This document shows positions 18,901 to 54,300 of a stretch of DNA of 64,000 nucleotides, in pieces. Position 1 is the stretch's first letter. Every line of letters begins with the position of its first letter. A program made the translations under genes and the position numbers. Under the pieces are notes generated by a model, which saw only the letters and a list, made by a program, of their open reading frames with translations, ran no database searches and was not told the origin of the DNA. The DNA comes from Dipodascopsis uninucleata var. uninucleata (taxonomy: Eukaryota > Ascomycota > Lipomycetes > Lipomycetales > Lipomycetaceae), in NCBI GenBank assembly GCA_030568195.1, contig JAJLTO010000022.1:62001-126000 (forward strand), given 5' to 3'.

Positions 18901-19219
18901 CCTCCAAGCTTATGATTCAATCGGATTGTTCTTTACTCAATGTTTAATATCTATAGCTGGGACTGACAACATATTCGGAGGACGGTTAAAAATGTTTTGA
19001 CAGTATTCGCATGTACACATAATGCATTAAAGCTGAAGGAGTTGCTCTACATATCTGGCAGCTGTGAACTATATCTATTGATGTTCTAAGCATGACATTT
19101 CCACAGTAGTGGGTGAAGCCAATCCAATAGATATACTGAAGGATGATGCACCTAGTATAGAAAACGTAGTGGAGCGGCAAACCATCTCTATTTGAATAGC
19201 ATTAATCTTGTAAATATCA
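15947..19219. other. Long gene-poor stretch
   Basis: 3.3 kb with no supportable gene. Short frames such as 16497-16694, 17040-17291 and 18986-19180 lack motifs. The composition is ordinary and AT-rich. Some segments around 18.7-19.2 kb look faintly coding-like on the minus strand but could not be assigned to a family. Confidence 0.5.
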
Positions 19220-19336
19220 GTTGCGGCCATACCAAGAAGAAAACACAGTTCCCCGTTCGATCAACACCAGTTAAGCTTCTTTGGGCCTACTCAGTACTGC
19301 GGTGGGAGACCACGCTGGAATCGTAGGTGCTGCAAT
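19220..19336 (+). rRNA. 5S ribosomal RNA gene, solitary
   Basis: About 117 bases matching fungal 5S rRNA throughout. It begins GTTGCGGCCATACC, continues with GAAAACACAGTTCCCCGTTC and GATCAACACCAGTTAAGC, then GGGCCTACTCAGTACTGCGG, TGGGAGACCACGCTGGAATC and GGTGCTGCAA. The two ends pair to form helix I (GTTGCG with the 3' GCTGCAAT). The internal control region (AGTTAAGC and the C-box segment) is intact. It is followed at once by eight T residues. No 18S, 5.8S or 28S gene adjoins it, so this is a dispersed 5S unit, as in fission yeast, Neurospora and Yarrowia. Confidence 0.93.
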
Positions 19337-19343
19337 TTTTTTT
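19336..19343 (+). terminator. Pol III T-run terminator of the 5S gene
   Basis: Eight consecutive T residues immediately after the 3' end of the 5S rRNA, the standard RNA polymerase III stop. Confidence 0.9.
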
Positions 19344-35941: not shown

Positions 35942-38410
35942 GGCTTGTGATCCTTACACCACCTAACGTTGTTTTTTTTTTGTGTTTGAAGAAGCGGGGG
36001 ATTAAAGTTTTAAAGTTTGTTAGGTAGTGGCTACGCCAAGTGAGGGATTTACTTGTGAATGTAGATTTTAGCAATAAATACGATATCTGTTTTAATGTTC
36101 GGTCGCAGTGTCGAGGCAAAGATATTCATTTTAGAGTGTAAGTATGGCCTGCATATTAAGAACAAAAATCGACGAATGCTGTAGAAACCGGAGCCGTGGA
36201 TTTTGAATTTTGGATGCATTTAAGACAGGTTATAAAGTGACGTCAACTCTACACATAATCTAATTGTGGCGTATAAAGCTGTTCATCCCCACGTAGTAGA
36301 CGACAGCATGTCAAACCGGAAATTTGAATAGGTGGGGAACTATAATGGAAACATTAAAATATGATAAAGTAAAATAAATGTTAAGAACGAGAATTAACAA
36401 CTGAGATTAAAAACGAAGGTGAGTTTATTAGATATATTTCTTACGTGAAGTAGTGACATATTGTTACTCTCAATGGGATACAAAAGCTTGTATAGAAATT
36501 GGCTTTTACTGTTTTCATGGCGTGGCGAAGCAAGATAGCCGAGAAACTGGTCGAACAAAGTGATTTGCGCATTCAAAACAGTTATCTAAGAAGGAAATCA
36601 TTTAGTCAACGTCATGATTATAAAAGCTTGAAGTCTGAACATTCCAAATAGTATTTAGTGGTTATTTTAAGCCAACTGCCACGTAATGCCCACATCGCCA
36701 GACTGAAAGTGCGAGCAAAAAAAGATAATTAACTGGATGATAGCTGTTAAATAAAGCCATCTGTCAGAAGAAAGCTAAGTGCACTCGATGAACATGGGTG
36801 TCAGCCATCGAGTCGAAAACAGGGACGGCTTAAACTTTGCAAAACGTTTTCCAAGATGTAATTAATGATTACGCTGTTAAGTGTTAGTGATATCTATCTT
36901 CTCGTGTTCTTATGATATTGAGAGATTGGGGATCTGATGACAGTGACGAAAATGTAACCAAGAATCAGAATATACGAGTAAAGACGTCATGAAAAGGATA
37001 TCATATGATTCAAGCTACAGTTGCTGGTAAAATTTGACGGCAAAAGGCGTATTGTTATCAAACCAATGTCTAATAGATTGATCATCAGACAAGCCAAGCA
37101 GTAAACCTACAGAGGACTGAGTTAGCTATATTACGTGAGCTGCAGAGACACCACTTGATAAAACTGTCCATTCGCGGCAGTAATAAAAAAGATGAATCCT
37201 ATTGCAGCATTGTAGCGCGCTGTTACTTTATCTTGGTTCTCATGTTCTTTTAAGCGATAAGCCAACTGACTATTCAGAAATGGTCTGTCGCAGAAGCTGA
37301 AGAGATACAAATTTAGAGTGGTATGGTTCAGGAAAGACTACTTGCAAGGATACAGAGCAGGATCTTCCTTGTTTGTCGTCTTGTTATCTCCGCTCCCGAC
37401 AACAGTATAACCAGAATTTAAGTGTGCGTGAATACAAAGGACAATGTCTTCTATCGCAAAATATTACATGCGTCAGCAGCGATACGGCAGCCATTTGAAC
37501 TATGATTAGTGAGAATTTAGAACCGTCATCGCTTAAGATATCTATGGAAGAGAGCATCCTGGCTTAAAATCGAGTAATGCCTGTTCTCCACGGTACGGGA
37601 AGACATAATAGATGATTTCAGCTGGAACTGAATAGTTGGAACTTAAATATTGCCTAGTACAGTCGATAAGCACCTTTACAATGCCAGGTGATCTAGTCTA
37701 CCAGATCAAATAGCTGATTCGTCCCCTTTGTTTCATGTCGTGTCCTCTTAATTTGGAGCTAGACTAACGTCATTTTCACGCATATAAATATCCTCTGGCG
37801 ACATATATTTTCACATTCGATCATATATCGAAAAGCAGTCGCTATGTACCGTGTACAGGAGCAATGTTAATCTATATGCATGCATTGAAGGCCATCAAAT
37901 ATTGCGTCAGTGACGTGAAATGTCCTGCTATTCCATTCCAAGGTTAACAGCAGTCGCTACTCGGCAAGTTAATCTGGGACTAATCTAGTAGCCTCCATAA
38001 TAAAAGGTCTAATAGTCTGAGAAGTCCAAAGAACGTGAACTACGGGATTGCTCGGGAATCGTGCGATGCTTGTGCTTGTAACACGAAGCCCCTCAAATTA
38101 TATGAATACTTGAAAGAAAACTCAGCAGTGTGTTCTAGTCTTCTCTGTGCTTTCGGACTCCTATTCAATTGTGATGACTCGAATAATGGCTAGTTTCAGC
38201 CAGTGCAATGACGATTATGTTTTGTTAGTGCGAGATATTCAAACACCATTAAAATTATTGAAATTATTTTCTATTTCTTTTAATGAGCCGGGACTCTGCC
38301 TGATGATATGCATTGCTTTGTTCATGTTGATGTTGGTTAAAGATGGATGCAAAGAGTGGAGCTGAATCGGATTTCCTATTATGTCTCCTCGGATATCTAT
38401 TTTAGGATAG
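35942..38410. other. Gene-poor stretch between transporter and regulator
   Basis: 2.5 kb with no supportable gene. On the minus strand around 37160-37430 the sequence reads faintly as protein, with one stop, but was not assigned. The two flanking genes converge here. Confidence 0.45.
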
Positions 38411-40615
38411 TCAATCGGTGATAATGTCATCAAAAAAAGGGAGACCAAAAAAAGAAATAGATTGCAGCCATTTCATGTCATCTTCTGAGATGTTCAAGCT
38501 GGAATCACCGAGATCATTATTATTCGAGCTGGTTCCGTCTTGAGTGAGGCAGTCAGAGACATTATAAGGCAGGGTTGAGCTTGGTATAGCTTGCCCTGAC
38601 TGTACTACTTGACCAGGTTCCGATGATATGATCATCATGACCTTGGAGCGGATCCGAATTAAGAGATTCCGGTATAGCGCAGCAGTCTTAGATCTCTTTT
38701 CGAGACTCTCGGTCACGCGCATGATTAAAGCCCAAGAATTCTCGACTGCACTTTCGTCCATATCTTTCCAGACCGACGGTATGAGTCGAACAATAGTCAG
38801 AACTACAGCAGATGTATAGATGTAAAACAAGTTAAACCAACAAATTGGACTGATAGGTCCGTTGGAATCTTTGGTATTAAAATACACGAGTTCAGGCAGT
38901 AGCATAGCCGATTTTGCGCACATTTTCGAAAACATAATAGAGGCAGATGTTACCCAGGAATCGTGTTCGTCCCAGATAGAACTTGCCTTCTGCAAGAATT
39001 CAGTCGATAATCCTTGGAGAGGAACTGAATTCGTTTCTGCTGATAGAGAAGACCTTGCTTTACGGTGCGGTTGACTTGTGAGCAAGCGAAGCATACAGGT
39101 GCGCAAAACTATTATCTGAACGTGAAGATATCTAGCAAACAAGATACGAGCCTGACCTTGTATTCTGTTGTCCAGCGATGACAGATTATTTGTAGTCGAA
39201 AATGCTTGTAAGAACCAAGGGACTTGAGCCTTCCAGTCAGAAAGAGCTTTCAGATGTTTAAAAGCGTTATCGACAAGTTTAAACCAGGAGCCTCTTAGAT
39301 CCTTGGAATACAAATCTACTTCTGCATAATCTAATGTTTGAAAGAGTTCAATGGTCACAATAAAAAAAGTCATTAAAGAAGGACGGTTCTCTGGTTGACA
39401 TTCAATATGTGTCTCATAGATTAGCTCATCATCTACAACACTCGGTAATGTCACAGAAGTAGTTTGCCAGATCATGGCGGGCCGTCCAAGAGTCAGTCCT
39501 AGAAGGCGATCTAATAGAAAACATCCATACCAGAGTCGCCGACGCATTTCTAACTCGATCATATCTTCGCATTCGTTCGAATCTACATCGACATGAAGAC
39601 CAAGCGACTGAGCTAAGCGAATAGTCAGACCCATTAAGCTCCAGCATAAATCTAGCTGTTCGGTTTCTTGAAGATATTGACAAGTTATTACCAGAGCTTG
39701 CACTAGTTCAAGGTCAACAGGTGGAGCGAAGGCTTCCAAAGAATCTAAGTGTAAAGCCTTTTTCGCACGCTCAAAATATACACGAAGAGCTTCATTCCGT
39801 TTCTCAAAAGCTAATTCATTTGAGAAGTGTCCACCAAATGCAAAAACCATATTTAAAGTGACGTAGAAGTACGGGTGCGATTCCAAGTCATAATCACCGC
39901 TCCAAATAGCTTCGTAAGTTTTCATAAAGCTGTGTTTGTGTACAAATGGATATATAATATGCGTGTATAAGAAATAGAGCGACACTAGCTCATCAGCCAA
40001 CCTTCTCGAAGGCAGATTTATGTCACCAAGAGGAAGTTTATGTATTTTTCTTGAACTTTTTGCAGCGTGCGGACTGTCATTCATTCTAATGTGAGGCTGC
40101 TGCAGCGACCCGTTATAAATGCTCAATATTCTGTTGGTTAGCTGATCTATGAATTTGTAAGATGAACTTCCAAAATCCGAATTGGGACCGTCTTTATCAT
40201 GTACAGTCATTTTGGTACACATTGCATCTGGCACATCTTCTTCATCGATAGTGTCATTTATGTCATTCGTATTGTCAATGGCATTTGATATTGCCTCAGA
40301 TTCAGTTATTGCTGACGATATAGCTCCTGCTTCTTCGTTAGTCACTCCTTTTTTCCTCGATAATGGTCCTGCGGCATCTGCTGCACCAGCTAAAATTGAA
40401 AGAGAGCTATGACATTCTTCGCCGGAAGCTTTTCGAGGAGTTGGATATTTACATACTCGAGTCGGATCTTTCTGGCAAGCTCCACAAACAGGCTGGACCC
40501 CGTCACATTTCACCTTTCTTTCCCGACACAGCAGACATGCCTGGGCAATTCGCCGTCTCTTTCTCGAGCGGATGTCGCTAGGTGTTGCATTATGATTAAT
40601 AAAAGTGAAATCCAT
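38411..40615 (-). CDS. Zn2Cys6 transcription factor, 734 aa
   Basis: Fungal zinc-cluster regulator. The N-terminal DNA-binding domain has all six cysteines (C27, C30, C37, C44, C47, C55: spacing CX2CX6CX6CX2CX7C) preceded by the basic run SRKRRR. A Ser/Ala-rich linker follows, then the fungal-specific middle homology region, about residues 200-480, with MNDSPHAAKS, a helical block and LRRLWYGCFLLDRLLGLTLGRPAMI, a hallmark of that domain. The C-terminus is low-complexity and acidic with Asn/Asp repeats, possibly an activation region. Position beside the GH32 and transporter genes suggests it controls sugar use, like Aspergillus InuR/AmyR-type regulators, but the target is inferred only from location. 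Confidence 0.92.
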   Translation of the reverse strand: MDFTFINHNATPSDIRSRKRRRIAQACLLCRERKVKCDGVQPVCGACQKDPTRVCKYPTPRKASGEECHSSLSILAGAADAAGPLSRKKGVTNEEAGAISSAITESEAISNAIDNTNDINDTIDEEDVPDAMCTKMTVHDKDGPNSDFGSSSYKFIDQLTNRILSIYNGSLQQPHIRMNDSPHAAKSSRKIHKLPLGDINLPSRRLADELVSLYFLYTHIIYPFVHKHSFMKTYEAIWSGDYDLESHPYFYVTLNMVFAFGGHFSNELAFEKRNEALRVYFERAKKALHLDSLEAFAPPVDLELVQALVITCQYLQETEQLDLCWSLMGLTIRLAQSLGLHVDVDSNECEDMIELEMRRRLWYGCFLLDRLLGLTLGRPAMIWQTTSVTLPSVVDDELIYETHIECQPENRPSLMTFFIVTIELFQTLDYAEVDLYSKDLRGSWFKLVDNAFKHLKALSDWKAQVPWFLQAFSTTNNLSSLDNRIQGQARILFARYLHVQIIVLRTCMLRLLTSQPHRKARSSLSAETNSVPLQGLSTEFLQKASSIWDEHDSWVTSASIMFSKMCAKSAMLLPELVYFNTKDSNGPISPICWFNLFYIYTSAVVLTIVRLIPSVWKDMDESAVENSWALIMRVTESLEKRSKTAALYRNLLIRIRSKVMMIISSEPGQVVQSGQAIPSSTLPYNVSDCLTQDGTSSNNNDLGDSSLNISEDDMKWLQSISFFGLPFFDDIITD

Positions 40616-40739
40616 AGCTCTCTTTAGCCCATTTTAGACCAATCGAAATACGGGATTTATTTTTGGTCGCGTTTTGAAGAGTTCTTCCTGCCTCTATTTC
40701 GTGTAGCCGAGATTCTTAGGGTTACCTTATTGGCGCCTC

Positions 40740-40752
40740 AAAAAGTGCGGGG
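40740..40752 (+). promoter_or_regulatory. Mig1/CreA-like site upstream of Zn2Cys6 gene
   Basis: AAAAAGTGCGGGG: GCGGGG core (40747-40752) after an A-rich flank, about 130 bases upstream of the regulator ATG. The third such site in the sugar gene neighbourhood. Confidence 0.45.
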
Positions 40753-40924
40753 AATTTACGAGCAGTTAATTGCATGGAGACTTCAGACATATGTTACGAT
40801 AGGAGAGACCGGTAAATTTTACCTTAAAAGAATACATACAATAAGCATATAATATCAAATTTTTTTGACAATAAACCAGACATTATTGGTATCTTTATTT
40901 TGCAGGTGTCAACCCCATGGATCT

Positions 40925-41020
40925 CGAACGCGCCATTCTTCTGTAGATATCTTCCCATCGAAGATCCGATACCGCGCTGAGTACAGTTATAGCAATGCTT
41001 TCTCCAGTCTTAAACTAAGG
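40925..41020 (+). pseudogene. Sugar transporter remnant (helix 10 loop)
   Basis: The translation SSVDIFPSKIRYRAEYSYSNAFSSL resembles the conserved GEIFPxKIRAKAxSxxTxxNWL segment of sugar porters, as seen intact in the transporter at 34.3 kb. Only this short piece is recognisable. It could be chance, though the IFPSKIRYRA core is quite specific. An eroded host gene copy is the best reading. Confidence 0.35.
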
Positions 41021-42939
41021 CCAAAATTGTTGTCAACTTGTTCTTTGGTATTATACCGAGTTACAGAGGCATAGACTGGCCAACTTCTTCTGAAAAGCAC
41101 TGCTGTGTAATGATATCGGTGACTATTTGAATCACTCAGTCATTATCTTTCTGATAAAATATCGAGCTATGTAGTTTGATTGCTCATCAGAGCTCCGCTT
41201 CGAACAACAGCACCTTACTCGCGGTATTCTAGCAAGCAGGAGGCATGAGAAGGAGATATATAGAACTGCCTCATCAAGCACCTAGGACATCGATCAAGTA
41301 GCTCAAGTCCATGTATCACCCAACTGGCCATCTCTTCTTGGTCCGCTTGACCATGGTCTTACCAGTAGTAGTGTTGTCGCTAGCTAGCTTTTGTATCAAC
41401 CGAAAAAAAGAGTCATTTTCCAAACACTATATTACCTTTGGGTTCAATGATCTACCTTCAAATTTCTTACCGACATCGAAATCTTTCACATCGGCTATTT
41501 GATTATTTTGAGAGACTGTTAACGTTCGTCGCTCTACGCTCATGTAAGCCACAGCATTTAGGACATAAAATAATCCGAGCCCCTGCCCTATTCCGATAAC
41601 ACCAACAAGGCACCGACGACACTAAGATCTTTCTGTGACTCCGCAGGCGGGTAACTTTGCTGCCTCAAATTTCTCCCAGAAGAGCTATCCAAGTCGCAGA
41701 TATGTTAATATATTGCGAATAGGTTCCATCGGAATGAATACAGTGAAATTTTTTAACTCGGGAAAAATAATTCTTCGTCAGGTAATTGACAGATATCGCA
41801 AGCGAAGCAAGACCATCCCTTTATCAGGACAACGTCACCGATGGGTCCAGTCGGTGGTACTTTTGATGTGTTGAACGAGATGTATTTTAATCATATTTCT
41901 AATACCTTTGTGCCCAAGACTTGTAAGAGAATGCTCATCGCAATCACCATTTATTTCGGAAAACTTGAATGGCATACTCTGTATATCTTAAGCAAAGGCA
42001 CAGTATACCGGAAACTAGTTCCATTGCAAATCCCTTCCCAATCTCTATATAGTCAAAGTCAGATATATGTAGCCGTGAACAAGCTATCATGGAATAGCCA
42101 GACTGATGCAACCTGTCGGCTAATACAATATCATGTTTGCACGCGTCCTTCATAAAATATCGCCTTCTTCACAACTAGTACATTATTATTTGTAGTTTCA
42201 TTATAGAGAACTATGGTTTATAAAAATTAGAGCTGTTGATGTTCTTCATATTCGCTCTGTAAATGGTGGATCCATGCCTATATAGCAAAATATATTCGGC
42301 AAGCCTAAATTGGTAACCGACTCTCAGCAGTGAGCTTCCCGAAATATTGTAATCACCTGCTTCATAGTAAAAGCCAGTATAATAGTATCATTTTCGGAAT
42401 GCAAAGGTAGATACAAAGAAAGCTCAATGCTAAGGCTAAGGTATATTTGGTATCAATGCTAAATTATCTATTATAGAATAGCGAAATCAGCCTTCTACAT
42501 CTAAGCCTTGCTGCGGAGAAAGTGGCATTGCATTACATGTAGTCCGATGCAGTACATTGAAGGAGCATGAGAGTAGTCAAGCTGTCAGACTGGATTTTAG
42601 TCTGCAGACATGTAATACATTAGAAAGTAATTCATTCTCAGTGGTTACAGTAGAAGAGACCTAATTTATAGCAACGTCTTAAGCCATATGCAACTATACA
42701 TAATTTTGAGGGATTCCTTCATAACGAATTCTATGATTTTCTGTTCAGAAATAACCTAATAATGCCAATTATACTATTCAGTCGAGTAAAAATGCAGCTA
42801 ACTTCCATCGAGCAGTTGGCCAAGCAATGAATATCGAGGTAGCTATTGTTATGTCGCATGTACACTGAACTTCCATCTCGGGCGAACAGTTCAATCGACT
42901 TTGCATAGGGTTACATGGGTTTCCGAGACGAAGGCTTGG

Positions 42940-43640
42940 CCTGGCTAATGCACCCCGCCTCTCTCCCCTCTCTCCCCGCCGCTTCTAAAAAGAGCAGACA
43001 GAGCCAAGTACTCCAAGATTCAATTACGAGCTTAAAGGTTGCAACTTAAATATGAACTTTTGAAGCTGGCATTACGCAACTACTGGCATCAGTTTTACCT
43101 CTCAATTATTCTTTATTAACCCACTTAGATCGTAGCCATTCCAACCACAAGACCAAAGTGGCCCAGGTACTACTCTTTATTTTTAGTGGATCTTACGCGT
43201 AGGAGCAGGACTTTGAGCCCTGTTGCCTTCATTGACTATGATAGCCACTTCAAGCTTCCTCTCCAGAATCGAACCCTTTTACTCCAAAACAACGGCAGGC
43301 CGTTATCCTATTGCAGAAAGTTGACGGGGCAGAAATTTTAATGATCATTGCCGGCTCGGGGCCATACAAGTCGATAATTTACATTGATCATCGAAGAGCT
43401 TAAAAAAGTATTCGTCGTTTATCTCATAACACATCCCTCCAAAGTCAGCAGTGTTAGCACGTATTGGCTCTAGATTATTATGTCTATCCAAAGAAGCGAC
43501 GTACTCTCAAATAAGTGGATAACTGATTTATCTGCGCTATCCCAGTTCCACTCTATAATTGCTTATATCCAGACCTACGTAGCTTAATCTTCGAAATAAG
43601 TGTATGACTACTGCAAGCATATAGCAGGCTGCGGCAATCT
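42940..43640 (-). pseudogene. Degenerate 5' third of an 18S rRNA gene
   Basis: Read on the minus strand, the sequence tracks the fungal 18S rRNA from its 5' end for about 690 bases in order. Anchors (plus-strand positions): GTAGTCATA (43603-43611), AAGATTAAGC (43582-43591), AAATCAGTTATC (43518-43529), GATGATCAATG then GTATGGCC (43361-43400), AAATTTCTGCCC (43327-43338), GGGTTCGATTCTGGAGAGG (43258-43276; one mismatch), GGTCTTGTGGTTGGAATG (near 43137-43155), AAGCTCGTAATTGAA (43020-43034), and GTGCATTAGCC (near 42943). Overall identity looks like 70-80 percent with small indels, so it is old and not expressed as rRNA. No rest of the rDNA unit was found beside it. Confidence 0.88.
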
Positions 43641-46299
43641 AATTAACCCATAAGCGCAATATGTAACTCATTAATCAATCTCTCGATACCGGCTCGTAGA
43701 CTGGTTCAGACAAACAAGCTCTCTCTTCGGTTAGGAAATTAGTTTAACGCCGCGGACAGATAGAAACCCAACCAAGAGTCTCATCAATTTTGCAAGCTGC
43801 TGAGATAAATGGTACTGGTGATACGGAAAAATTACTTGTAATCCTACTGCCTTCTTTAGTATTTCTTCAATTAGTTTCTCATAAATGTCCAGCTTTCTCA
43901 CATGCGTAGTTTTATCATCACTAGCTAAAAAGGAGATTACGATCAGCCTAGATCTAGTCAAAAATTTATCAATAGTTACTAAACTTGATTGATACCCAGC
44001 TAAATTTCGTAGATGATACTTGTAATCTGTTAGTTATTCACTAAAGCCAGGTCTTCCTGACAGAGCTACATATATGAGGCCGCCTGGCCCCACCTTAGTA
44101 ACATATATCTCAGAGAGAGTGTATTAATTTGGTTTATATTTGGTAAAAGCACGGAGTACTTGGAAACTTGCGTAGCTAGTATGCGCAATCTCAGAACATC
44201 GCGATCTATAGCATCTGTTTTCTCCATTTTTTGTTCATAAAATACACATCAATTATCTCCTTGTGTTCCTGCAGCTATTCGTGCTCTCCACTATTATCCA
44301 TTCGAGTCGGCCGCTAGATAGAGACTGAAAGCTTTGAATATTCTTATAATTTTCAAAAGAAACCGACTCTCTCCGTCAGTGAACCATGTTTTGCAATGAG
44401 AACATTAAGTGAAATCCTCACTATTACAATCAGTTAAAACGCTGAAGAATTCATACACAGGAACACAATCTTTTAAGAAAAATATTATCAGTAAGCTTAA
44501 GAACTTTATTTAAATAGTTCTTTGGCCCACTTTCTATAGTCTATGCGAGGCTTACTGGCGTTGCCCTTCAATTAATCACTATCTCCCGTAGAGACGAGGA
44601 ATCAAAACAATAAAAATAAAAATACAGGTACAACATTAAACTTTGGTATGGAGTTTCAGCCCGGTATAACCTTACCTGACTTTGATGAGTGCTGTTTAAA
44701 CTCACCAAGGCAAATACATCTCGATTAGCTAACTACAGTACTTCTATTATCTGATTCTTCTTAAGCCCGCATCATTCACTTCATAGAAATTGGTGGGCTA
44801 GATAGACTATAACAAAGATTCTGAGTTGCCAATGCCAGGCTGATCCAGTTACCGCGTAATGCAATAGATAATGCTCATGTGATGTAATTACAGCGCACAA
44901 TAATCGAGTACTATGAATGCATATGAGTGGAGTAAGACGATTATTGGAAATAAGATACGGCTGACTGTTAACCTGACATAATAGCTTCAGTTCCTCTGGA
45001 GCTTAGCTTTTGAAACAATGATATTTGAGTAAAGTATATTATATCCATTGAGAAGAGTTTACAGATCTTCGATATTGACCACCGAAATACTCTACTCGTG
45101 ATTCTAATATCATCATCCCGGAAGCAATGGAAGCTCAGACCATGAATTTATCCAGTTAAGTATGCTTGGCTTGTATGCTACTGACATCCTAAGGACTATA
45201 GGGACAAGACTGTCAACTTTCGCAGTCTCATTCTAAGAAGACCTACGATAATCTTGATGAAATTACCACTATTGCCGGCATAAATAGTTCTCATACAGAA
45301 CGGAAGTGTATTTATATAGAAGATAAGAGCTCACAATCTAGAAATTTCCTGTACCTAAATAAGACCATTTTTGAGAAGCGCTAAAAGTGTCATCAGAATC
45401 CGTTGGTCTCACTTACAAGACGTACTAAATTTTTATTTTTATTTATTCTATTAGCCGACATAGTGAGTTTTGGTTATCAGTAGTATAGGCGTAGGTTTTG
45501 CCTGTCTTATACATCCATTATCTCCTACGCATTATCTCCTGCAGTAGACTCAGGTTGTTAGATACCACGACAGCTGCGGATAGCAAGAGGGCCCATAATC
45601 TAGCGCTAGTTCAATATATGCCTAATATAAAATATGAATACCGATATAGGTATCCTATATTAAATAAATAGCACAATACTATAACCGTTAATTTATGCTA
45701 TTCAGAAAATCTAAAGAGCCTTTATGCCATAGTAGTATATAAGTTTGATGCAGAGTTCCTTTACCAACCACTTGTTCCTGGACAAAATCCTCAAATGTAA
45801 CGCCACAGTTGAAAGAGGCCTAGCTGCAGCCATTCACAAATTTGAATATGATAATTGATCGTTCACTTTATACAAGAGAAAGTATACAGCTGGCAATTAT
45901 CCTCTTCAAAATAGGATTGAAAAACAGGACTTCTAGAAGCCATCTGGAAATCACATAGGTTAGACTCGTGCGGCTGTTAAGGGCACTGTTAGTTCTCTGC
46001 ATGGAAGAATCCAAATACCATACTTAACCTAACCCACAATAATTTAGTTATCGGAAATAGAAGTTTACACGAGGATGACTATACCTACAAAATGGTCACC
46101 AAATGCGCCGACTACATTCTGTAAACTTCGCGAACAAGAATATTAATGCTTTAGTCTGAATTAATTTATCTCTAACCAAAATTCGCTATGAGTTTTTAAC
46201 TGAATCTCAATTGTTCTGATATAGTATATAAATCTATCAATAAGGAAATGACTTAAAAGCACATTACAAACAAAATGTCATATATTTTATAACTACGCT
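43641..46299. other. Gene desert, right part
   Basis: 2.66 kb with no intact gene. A 76-aa minus-strand frame at 43731-43961 lacks motifs. No rDNA spacer or tRNA was identified upstream of the 18S remnant. Confidence 0.45.
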
Positions 46300-48309
46300 T
46301 CATACAGATTCATTGCTTTCTATATGCTCCGATCCTGAAAGCTTTATTTCCTCGGTCTTTGCTTGTACTGGATCGTGCTCTAATCCAACCTCCGCTAAGA
46401 CCGCTTGCATGCGCTCAAGGTCTACTGCTCCAGAGTTGTCTCCGAAAACAATGTCCATCTCCTCAAGTGTTTTGTATCGAGTCTCTGGCAATATGAAGAG
46501 TACGAACAGGAACATAAGCAAACAAAATGAGCCGAAAAATATATATGTGCCAAATTTCAAATGATCAAGCATATTTGGTGTCACTTGTCCCACGACGAAC
46601 TATAAAACGGTCAGCATAAAATATAGGGTAAAACAGAAGGTATAACGACTTACGTTCATCATATAGTTACAACTAATAATAATGCTGACAGCTTGACTTC
46701 GATGACCTGGAGAAAAGATCTCAGCACAAACCAACCAAGCTACTGGTCCCCATGAATAGGAGAAATTAGCGCCGAAAATCTATAATCAAGTTAGAAATGC
46801 GCTAGTAATAAATAACTGTAGAAAACAATCACTGCTTACGTATATGAATATCACTCCTGCCCATCCAGCTACTTTTCCACCTGGGACACTGTAGTTTCCG
46901 TCATAGTGGCCAACAATGCCTGCTACAATTGCATGAGACAGCATCATACCAATGGCGCCTGCCATAAAGAAGATACGACGACCAAATCGATCCACAAAGA
47001 AGATTGCAGGGAATGTAGCAACAAAGTCGACAATTCCTAGGACACCAGTAGCCAATAGAGATGTCGTAGAGGCGTTCAAGCCGAGACTACCAAAAATAGT
47101 TGGAGCATAACTATAATTCTAAGTTAGAGATACAATAGCACTACTATACGACAGGAGAACATACTAGATGATAGCATTGATACCACAAAATTGTTGAAAA
47201 AACATGATTGTACATCCACAAGCAAGTCGCCGGAAAAGGCCAGGATTGGTGAAGAGCATACCCACTTTTGCTAATGCCAAGCTAAACCCTTGCTTTCCAG
47301 GATGCTGTTCTTGAGCAGTGCGCTCGTCAAAGAGGACAGAAGCCATTATCTCGAGGTATTCCGTTTCGACAATTGGATGATCTAGAGGTAATCCATGTAA
47401 CTTACTGATAGTGTTACGACACTCAACTTTCCGGCCCTTTGACATCAGCCAACGCGGACTGAACGGTAAGAAGGGTGTCCCAATAAGAAGAATTACCGCA
47501 GGTACAGCTTGTAATGCCAATGGTAGTCGCCAAGCAAGAGATTTTTGTCCATTGCAGCCTCCGACAGGGACATCAGTATAAGGATTCCACGTATCTGAGT
47601 CGACTACTGCACCCTTAGCACAAGCCTGTCCTCCAATAAAGCTAGTACCATAGCAAAGCCAGTATGAAACCATGATTCCGCCGCCTAATTAGGAGATTAG
47701 ATCTAAACGCAGTAAATATACGACTAACAAGTACATACAAATTCCAATCTGCTGCACAGACACGAGTGCACCTCGAAACTCCGATGGTGAAATTTCAGCC
47801 AGGTACAAAGGCACAACGTGTGATATTTGTCCGACAGCTACTCCAGCTATGATACGTCCCGCAAAGAGATACGCCACATCTTGAGCACCAGCACAGAGAG
47901 CGCTGCCAAAAGCGAAGAGCTAGACACTATGTTAGTCTTGTTGAGAGACTAGAACGGAGTTACTTACAAATGCTGCAACTGTTAGACTGTATTTTCTGGA
48001 AATCATGTTCGCTAATGGGCCATTGATGAGCGCTCCGAGCCATGCACCTAGTTGTAATACCGAAACGACCCATCCTTTAAGGACAGAATCGCTATATACA
48101 GCAGGAAACCTAGCTCCAAAATTTTGACCAGTCAACAAATTCGAGAGAACTCCCTGGTCAGTACCGTAGAGGAAAGAGCCAATACAGGTGAAGAGGGTAG
48201 AGCAAAGGAGAAAGCGATTTGCACTTATCAGACCCAGGAAACCAGACTTCCGGTTTTCGGTGAGCTGTTGCATTCGCGAGGATTTAACCTCTGTTGAAAA
48301 GCCAGGCAT
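46300..48309 (-). CDS. MFS sugar transporter, six exons, 579 aa
   Basis: Complete sugar porter with 12 predicted helices. Exons, in transcription order: 47968-48309, 47739-47919, 47165-47684, 46840-47110, 46654-46779, 46300-46599. All five introns (48-60 nt) have good donors (GTAAGT, GTATGT, GTATGT, GTAAGC, GTAAGT) and CTAAC/CTGAC branch sites, and keep frame. The ATG is at 48309. Motifs include YGTDQGVLSNLL, LYLAEISPSEFRGALVS, FSPRWLMSKGR, FFQQFCGINAIIYYAPTIF, VDRFGRR, SYSWGPVAWLVCAEIF and LPETRYKTLEEMD. No stop or frameshift. It differs clearly from the 34.3 kb transporter, so it is not a recent duplicate. Substrate is probably a hexose, but could be another sugar. Confidence 0.93.
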
Positions 48310-51300: not shown

Positions 51301-54300
51301 GGAACAAGAAATGATTCTAAATCATAATGGAGTATTGTCACTTGTGACATCTATTTAAGCTCCAGCTGCCAACCTCCGTGGGTACCACTACGCTTACGCT
51401 CTCATATGTCTCAAGGGATTTTTTTATAATATGCAGTGATGTGAAAGGAAGATCCGAGCTACACTCCAAAACATCATATCTAAAATAAGATATCAGTTGC
51501 AGAGTACATTCCTAAATTAGCCAGCTACATAACTTTCGACACTACGAAGTTTGTTGAATGACCTATGCTTAAGCTACTTAGGACTACTATAACTATACGT
51601 AGCCTTTAGTCGTCAAAGTCACCGTTCGTAGTCATCACGGGTTATATAATGCGAATTTATCCGAACTGATGGCCACTCCGGCCTTATATAGGGGACTCGG
51701 TATTCGTCAATATCGTAGCTCATATGTTGAGCTTGGTGGCGACGTAGCCAGTGCTATCGTGTTCGGTGGCACAATAGATCGGAGGTATAAGCTTTCTTGT
51801 CAATCTTCGAGCTCTTCTCGACTATTTTGTAAGAACTGTTAGAAACTGGCTTGGCATGTCTCTTCGTCCCGCCAATTATGCGCCTACTAAGAATTCTTTT
51901 TCATCCGGACCCCGCAGGTGGAAGGCCACCAATAACTACGTGCATCCAATGAGCAACTGCCACACAAATACAATTGAATGAAATCGTCTCTACTGGTTTA
52001 ATACTTCCATAAGATATCGTAATATCCCAGCTTTCCCAGTTGATTGTAGCGCCCAAAGTCACAGGATGCAGCCACGATAGACGTGTGCCATTAGCAAATC
52101 ATAAAACAGCTGACACTGCTCAACTTTAGTCAAGCACGCACTATAACAGATATACCGGCAGATCTAGTGTAATTTTGAATGAATCACAGCTTACTACGAA
52201 TGATATGTACGACACGTTCCGTAGCATGCATTTTTATTCGAGATTGAGAACAGGGAAAAATGAATGGCTGAATGCCAGTGTCGTCTGCGAATTAGACGAC
52301 GCGACCGCTAAGCGTAGTGTAGATCTTGTTAAGCTTCGTACGAAGTGATTTACAATATTAGGATACATCTACGCAGTCTTTTCCAAAGCCAGATAGTAGT
52401 ACCATAAAGTCCGTGATGCCAATAAGCAAAGCATTGGCAACAAAATCATTATCTGTTGTTGACCCATTTACTAGTTCTACTGGTGATGCCTATAGACAGA
52501 GCCAGCTCACAAGCTAATAGCACTTGCTTGTGTCCTAGAGATATCAGATGCGATGAATGATAGGATACTGGACGCGTACAATCGGCACATCTCCGATGGT
52601 TGATACAAGCAGAAGGCGCCATGACAATGACACCGCTCCCAATCGCAGTCGCCCTGCACTGCGGTTTATTTCGAAGGGTATATATGTATAGGTGGAATTC
52701 CAGGTTACTTCATCTAGCGCTCAGCTGCAAGGCCACAGAGCCAACGGCTCAGTTTGTCATATGCGTCATAGAAAAAAGAGGCACCGAGCAAATACTTGGA
52801 TATCTCCGATCAGACCCAGCCATTCATCATATTGTGGATCTATCTGTTGGAACGTGCAAAACTTGACTCTCTCTGACCATACAACGTTGAGATGCAGTTG
52901 GTTGAGCAGTGTATTTGAATCATCTGGCACGTTAGATGTCGGTATGAATGACAATTGCAGTAAAGATGGTTTAGAAGTATCTGCTTGCTTGCGTACCTCA
53001 TAGATGGCCAGTCCAAGTGGTTTCTTCGAGGACTGCGGCATGTGTTAGGACGTGTTCTGATATTCATCCAACTCTACTCGAAGTCAATCGACGTGATTCT
53101 GATTAAGATGGTTGATAAACTCTGACTGCAGATTTTTCAAGTTTCAAAACTCGTAGCTCTAGAGTGCACGCTATGCGCGCGACTCATCTGGAGCCTTGAG
53201 AGCCGAATCAAACTAGATTACTAGGACTTTATTCTAAGCGTGATAATCGAAATCAAGAATCGACAAGTCTGTGGTATACAGCCTTAAATTACAATACTCG
53301 CTATCTTATATGTCCGGCCCCATTGCTGCAATCGCTTGCTCTTCCACTTATCGTCGGTCCAGATACTTTCCGTAGTATCTACGTACGTGATAACACTCTA
53401 CGTGTAAGACCTCGTAATTTATCTAGATACTCCGTACACCTCGAAACGCCAAGCTATCCCACGAGCCATTCTTCATTAACGTGTACGTAAAACGCATTAG
53501 TGCGGGCTCCGAAATACGGTGAGATTTCAAAGTCTGATAAGACAGTTCGTATTGATAACTTGTCTGGTTACAGGACCGGATCACCGAACTTGGTGTTATT
53601 GATTTCCGGCTCATAAACACTATGAGTAAAGATGTAAACTCGAGCTTATCGAATCGCTTTGGACACACTAAACTTCCATCACAAGAAGAGAGCTTTTGAG
53701 TGGATAATATGTTATAGTTACATGCGGTCTGGATTGAGAAGCAGGCCCAGTCTTTGAAGAGGGTGAAGCAACCAATCTCGATTAGGCACGGTTCGAAATC
53801 GATTCGTATGAAATTATATGATACAGCTGTAGCTTACGCTGTAGGATGGTGTAATCTCAAGCTCGTGAAGCTGCTTGCTTCCAGTCACGGATATTTCCAT
53901 TGAATTTCCAATTCCTAATAATTCACGATATAGTCCAAAACGCAGTTTAATTGCAAGTATGCTTGCGAATACCTTACTATTTCTCTGCATCCATGTCATA
54001 ATAAAACTATTAATCAGCAATGTTGATGAAGTGATTGGGACAGAATGGGTGATGACGTTCCAAGTCCTTTCTGATAGCTTTGCATGCAGTCGCACTCGTC
54101 GCCACGGCGATTCTAATTATTAGGCACTGAAAGTCCTGATTCTTGACTGATATCCTGATAGTTCGTTTTATCGAGCGACCTTTGCCTCTCCAAGGGTATT
54201 CAAGTAGGCTTGCTATCCACGTTGGATTTCTGATCTCCGAAATCAACCTGACTTTTGGACACGGTAAGATCTAGCGAAATCCAAGCGCCAGTGTGTGGAT

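Follow-up and report, generated by a model that had tools for sequence, protein, structure and literature searches.

The DNA analysed here, referred to as the window, is a stretch of 64,000 nucleotides from Dipodascopsis uninucleata var. uninucleata. The part of it that concerns us lies between two genes carried on the minus strand and contains the following features (the exons of the sugar transporter other than the last were recognised by eye in the six-frame translation and the sequence):

38411 to 40633, minus strand: flanking fungal transcription factor of the Zn(2)Cys(6) type, an open frame of 740 codons whose upstream side faces the fragment (PF04082, E = 2.9e-35; PF00172, E = 3.9e-06)

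40634 to 46300, no strand assigned: intergenic stretch of ~5.7 kb around the fragment, in which neither a gene nor a transposon domain nor any further rDNA piece could be recognised (Pfam, Rfam)

42988 to 43627, minus strand: decayed 18S rRNA gene, 5' part only, from 18S position ~4 to ~667, ending in V4 (cmscan, and BLAST to the reference L010)

46303 to 47919, minus strand: flanking sugar transporter with short introns, represented by its 3' exons, the 5' end lying further up (last exon PF00083, E = 3.5e-10)

Window positions 42988-43627 correspond, on the minus strand, to the first (5') third of a eukaryotic 18S rRNA gene with its pieces in order. A covariance-model search of the window, a kind of check proposed in an earlier note on this DNA, found a significant match to SSU_rRNA_eukarya (Rfam, cmscan) on the minus strand at 43627-43049, running in order from model position 4 to 605 with 133.1 bits (E = 7.6e-36), well above the gathering score of 50. 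BLAST against L010 carries the match on to 42988, at 18S position 667, the alignment spanning 18S positions 4-667, and the fragment reaches a local-alignment score of 208.5, against at most 17.0 in resampled controls (n = 40). The Rfam model and BLAST thus agree with the earlier description of an in-order 5' part of 18S on the minus strand. The span given at that time, 42940-43640, had the location right but overshot the fragment by ~48 bases on its low side and by 13 on its high side, and the identity of 70-80% was slightly too high: against L010 it is 68.1% by BLAST (456/670 columns), 69.7% when the 613 ungapped sites are counted and 66.6% in one more alignment, that is, ~67-70%. The fragment is homologous to the eukaryotic 18S rRNA gene.

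The references were 13 eukaryotic rDNA stretches present in bacterial assemblies, retrieved by one pattern scan of genome contigs; an 18S pattern scan of viral contigs found none. Twelve of them score best as SSU_rRNA_eukarya and the other, a 149-base end (L011), scores best as the microsporidian model. BLAST gave one long piece for 9 of the 13, its low end falling between 42988 and 43018, as well as short pieces for L011 and L001 and, at the setting used, none for L005 and L009. The fetched references nearest to the fragment are L010, L008 and L002, which we take to be yeast-like; an 18S of the fission-yeast type, used in addition to the fetched ones as was one of the Pezizomycotina type, is about equally near. 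In the tree, the fragment sits on a long branch (~0.57) beside fungal sequences, with adjacent supports of 0.22-0.86, and a placement near the fungal sequences is weakly suggested.

Several observations bear on whether this could be a divergent but functional 18S. A functional gene would be complete at ~1.8 kb; here homology stops near position 667, and the similarity of the downstream flank to 18S positions 640-1800 is at chance level, so that no continuation was found there. The invariant core is not intact either. Within the region covered, the 12 fetched 18S sequences all agree at 214 columns, of which the fragment keeps 148, alters 56 and is without 10; this departure at 66 of the 214 compares with 0-15.1% for each of the 12 fetched sequences when held out and scored on the columns shared by the others. 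Since 56 substitutions fall within 204 present, otherwise invariant columns, we infer that the copy must be old.

Helices maintained by compensatory change are not seen in the fragment: relative to L010, 66 helix pairs are changed and 32 broken, 10 being doubly compensated and 30 broken by a single change. The four most divergent fetched 18S, which share 60-72% identity with L010, clearly reverse this balance (doubly compensated/singly broken: L012 19/11, L009 22/12, L001 22/8, L005 31/14), and nearer 18S controls are about even (L006 5/6, L007 5/8, L013 10/9, L003 9/10, L004 13/10). The broken share of changed pairs, a noisy measure, is 0.48 for the fragment and 0.31-0.46 for nine fetched 18S when compared with L010, and 0.49 against an overlapping 0.38-0.57 when compared with the Rfam consensus. 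In a shuffle test that preserves substitution types (2000 shuffles; sequence-only alignment for single references), compensated pairs lie above the shuffle mean for 9 of 9 single references, a small excess. It is weakest against L007 (8 compensated pairs, 5.4 expected, 288/2000 shuffles as high) and strongest against L013 (15, 7.7 expected, 3/2000); the corresponding values are 10 against 5.6 (62/2000) for L010, 13 against 6.2 (6/2000) for the Pezizomycotina type and 18 against 11.4 (24/2000) for the Rfam consensus, or 21 against 11.0 (3/2000) when the consensus is used with a structure-fitted alignment. At the 81 usable pairs that are invariant in seven references, 5 are compensated against 3.6 expected (546/2000) and 60 are paired against 60.6, and at the 41 pairs that are the same in every one of the 12 fetched sequences the numbers are 2 against 1.8 and 28 against 29.9; a slight excess (9 against 5.3, 121/2000) persists at the 131 pairs whose invariance is limited to the three yeast-like references. 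Since the excess is gone at invariant pairs, it is attributed to a parent 18S that differed from the references, and the invariant-pair result is what would be expected if the parent was already different in the variable helices and the copy then decayed freely. A functional divergent 18S is ruled out by the core-column losses and the helix tests. The fragment is a dead, non-functional piece of an rRNA gene with no sign of present activity and, being partial, unconstrained and the sole large-unit rDNA match within the window, it has the characters of an rDNA pseudogene.

The stretch around the fragment had been called a gene-free 5.7 kb, a description that is correct as far as known domains go: a Pfam search of 40634-46300 at E 0.1, in six frames with X at stops, gave no match, which rejects a hidden gene or transposon domain at that threshold. 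Of the single frame pieces searched, those lying inside the gap or on its border had no match better than E 0.2, the transporter's last exon excepted. The longest stop-free run of the gap, 121 codons, is unremarkable (32/200 resamples equal or longer), and a permissive Rfam search of the gap returned the 18S fragment and two matches far under their gathering scores. By a crude coding score, there are other low-coding stretches in the window, some of them longer than the gap; the score is unfit to rank such deserts, since it also called the transporter's last exon non-coding, and the longest low-coding stretch that it picks out contains a decayed rhamnosidase-like gene.

Some neighbouring sequences deserve a mention of their own. 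Just upstream of the fragment, at 43734-44248 on the minus strand, lie two runs without stops close to each other, one of 60 and one of 100 codons, the longer with a slightly raised coding score and no Pfam match; the pair is possibly a dead gene. The decayed alpha-L-rhamnosidase-like gene lies at 51937-53660 on the minus strand (PF08531, E = 0.00074; PF17389, E = 8.9e-07 and 2.2e-05), where the Pfam pieces are colinear and spread over three frames with many stops around them, and introns may cause some of the shifts. With the sugar transporter and the zinc-cluster regulator near it, this relic perhaps belongs to a decaying sugar-use cluster. The window also gives matches to ISWI and GH32 among solved structures, which, like the zinc-cluster regulator, point to an ascomycete. 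Finally, 19219-19338 on the plus strand is a lone, apparently intact 5S rRNA gene (96.4 bits), the large rDNA unit being absent from the window; a lone 5S gene away from the large unit is the arrangement of fungi with dispersed 5S genes.

How did a third of an 18S gene come to lie in this spacer? One possibility, already raised in the earlier note as the loss of a former rDNA locus, is that the fragment is the relic of an rDNA array or of a chromosome-end rDNA locus that has since disappeared. In that case, 43628-46300 could be transcribed and intergenic spacer that is no longer recognisable. Yet no further 18S, 5.8S or 28S was found at gathering score in the window or to E 10 in the gap. Five comparisons of the flanks or gap with 18S or with the spacer of the yeast-like L010 all remained under the control maximum, as did three of the four with 5.8S/LSU pieces, for which the LSU references are partial. 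The fourth aligned the stretch before the fragment, 43628-46300, with the start of the L010 5.8S/LSU at a score of 18.5, where 20 resamples reached no more than 17.0. This score is met by 8/300 resamples, is unremarkable among nine comparisons and finds no support in cmscan. A continuation into the remaining 18S, 5.8S or 28S was thus looked for in the flanks and the gap and gave no convincing piece; spacer DNA is not recognisable across species without the organism's own rDNA, and the absence rests on the 18S, 5.8S and 28S. Since no convincing further piece of these genes was found, the lost locus is unsupported and we regard it as very improbable.

Another possibility is that 18S rRNA was reverse-transcribed and the copy then inserted. 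The homology does begin at or beside the mature 5' end of 18S, as such an origin would have it, but its exact start says little, because the external spacer would be unrecognisable in any case. Moreover, the 3' two thirds of the gene are absent, and neither a tail nor a target-site repeat was found: there is no A or T run of at least 7 bases in 42501-44200, and direct matches between the flanks reach 6 bases at most, a length expected by chance, inverted matches being likewise at chance. Any target-site repeat would, however, be eroded by now. LINE-type copies are usually truncated at their 5' end, whereas the fragment is the 5' end of 18S. We regard a retrocopy as very improbable too.

It is also conceivable that the fragment was carried by a transposon, now dead, that had captured part of an 18S gene. 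A listing of repeats in 38000-48000 contains one weak direct and six inverted pairs, none of which coincides with the ends of the fragment itself. Among those bracketing the fragment, the most exact is an inverted pair of 17 bases (16/17 matching) at 42114-42130 and 45444-45460, which would be the ends of the putative element. Such a pair arose in 0/100 resamples of the gap in one run and 71/1000 in another, and it occurs in 6/42 real, overlapping stretches of the same length, four of these being one TA-repeat tract and one the gap itself. Extending the alignment of the two ends adds nothing (76/300 controls as high), and there is no target-site duplication: the bases directly outside 42114 and 45460 do not repeat, and the direct-repeat test is at chance (14/100). 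The pair is just slightly rarer than chance would have it, thin evidence for element ends, and a carrier transposon seems a very unlikely vehicle.

The mutations themselves speak of ordinary decay. Over the 613 ungapped sites compared with L010, there are 186 substitutions, which the count of transitions and transversions suggested earlier divides into 111 and 75; the same alignment has 12 deletions totalling 27 bases and 2 insertions totalling 3, mostly small deletions, in line with the many indels reported before. The commonest change per base is C-to-T on both strands (58/257 C or G sites). By context, it affects 18/79 CpA, 12/64 CpC, 15/40 CpG and 13/74 CpT. CpA shows no excess over CpC and CpT together (25/138; p = 0.48), and CpG is the sole raised context (p = 0.02 against the rest). 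There are also 53 A-to-G or T-to-C changes, and the RIP indices differ little between the fragment and the window (TpA/ApT 1.06 vs 0.87; (CpA+TpG)/(ApC+GpT) 1.17 vs 1.23). Transitions and CpG sites are thus mildly favoured, as ordinary mutation would have it, and the fragment is the product of ordinary decay, not of repeat-induced point mutation (RIP). The earlier judgement that RIP alone does not explain the changes was, if anything, cautious, the CpA signature of RIP being wholly absent; the context counts exclude RIP at CpA as the cause of decay. That RIP mainly ruined this piece is accordingly the least probable of the readings considered, in spite of the prevalence of C-to-T and of long displaced rDNA that, as excerpted in PMC2621366, was RIP-mutated elsewhere, given the flat CpA, the many transversions and A-to-G/T-to-C changes and the near-background indices. 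Arrays of rDNA themselves are described as shielded from RIP in the relevant excerpts of two reports (PMC4994206, PMC5496416).

The reading that we favor, with a probability of roughly 0.85, is a single old insertion of a short rDNA fragment followed by drift, and the ancient rDNA insertion already contemplated in the earlier note fits the decay, the core loss and the indel data. The DNA-level nature of the insertion, its route, its great age and a parent in the host lineage's own rDNA are what we infer from the locus as it now stands. In this scenario, a piece of the nuclear rDNA unit, made up of the 5' third of 18S, perhaps with a stretch of the preceding spacer, would have been transferred at the DNA level, by copying or by relocation, to the spacer that separates the transcription-factor gene from the sugar-transporter gene, probably by the end-joining repair of a break or by ectopic recombination. 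Once outside the array, it would no longer have been subject to the homogenisation by which the copies of the array stay alike, and would have decayed unconstrained to ~70% identity through ordinary point mutation and mostly small deletions.

Partial, unconstrained copies of 18S dispersed off the array are known as pseudogenes in animals and plants, where many are thought to be retrotransposed. The fragment is equally partial and unconstrained, but it bears no mark of retrotransposition. Closer precedents come from the fungus Stagonospora nodorum, in which rDNA remnants are scattered outside the array (PMC2621366, PMC3017866). According to the portions of these reports that treat them, alignment of the remnants shorter than 1 kb (repeat family Y1) reveals no CpA RIP, although their RIP index values are extreme, and their consensus has 46% global identity to the array, whereas non-array rDNA of at least 1 kb shows CpA RIP and has a consensus 89.5% identical to the array. 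As far as these portions go, the fragment resembles the short Y1 remnants in being under 1 kb, off the array, strongly diverged and without CpA-to-TpA RIP. It differs from them in several respects: Y1 consists of several copies, mostly under 300 bp, and has much CpT-to-TpT and extreme indices, whereas the fragment is one piece of 640 bases in a different fungus, with no excess at CpT and indices near background. With the long S. nodorum copies, it shares the fact of rDNA moved off the array and inactivated (PMC2621366, PMC3017866), but it is shorter, lacks their CpA RIP and is compared, at ~70% identity, with a foreign 18S rather than with its own array. On these partial descriptions, the fragment fits the short S. 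nodorum class, shaped by drift rather than by CpA RIP, and is of a kind already described. Its presentation as unusual in the earlier note was therefore overstated, scattered short non-array remnants without CpA RIP being on record in the same portions (PMC2621366, PMC3017866). Literature searches turned up no report that could be assigned to this particular fragment, a negative that says little.

The finding has little reach beyond its locus, where it is a case of rDNA decaying through drift, with no CpA RIP, after its departure from the array. It also carries a warning for annotation, as a partial SSU match of this sort is not to be taken for contamination or for a second rRNA gene. If orthologous copies exist in relatives, the fragment could serve as a marker of the neutral rate and of deletion bias.
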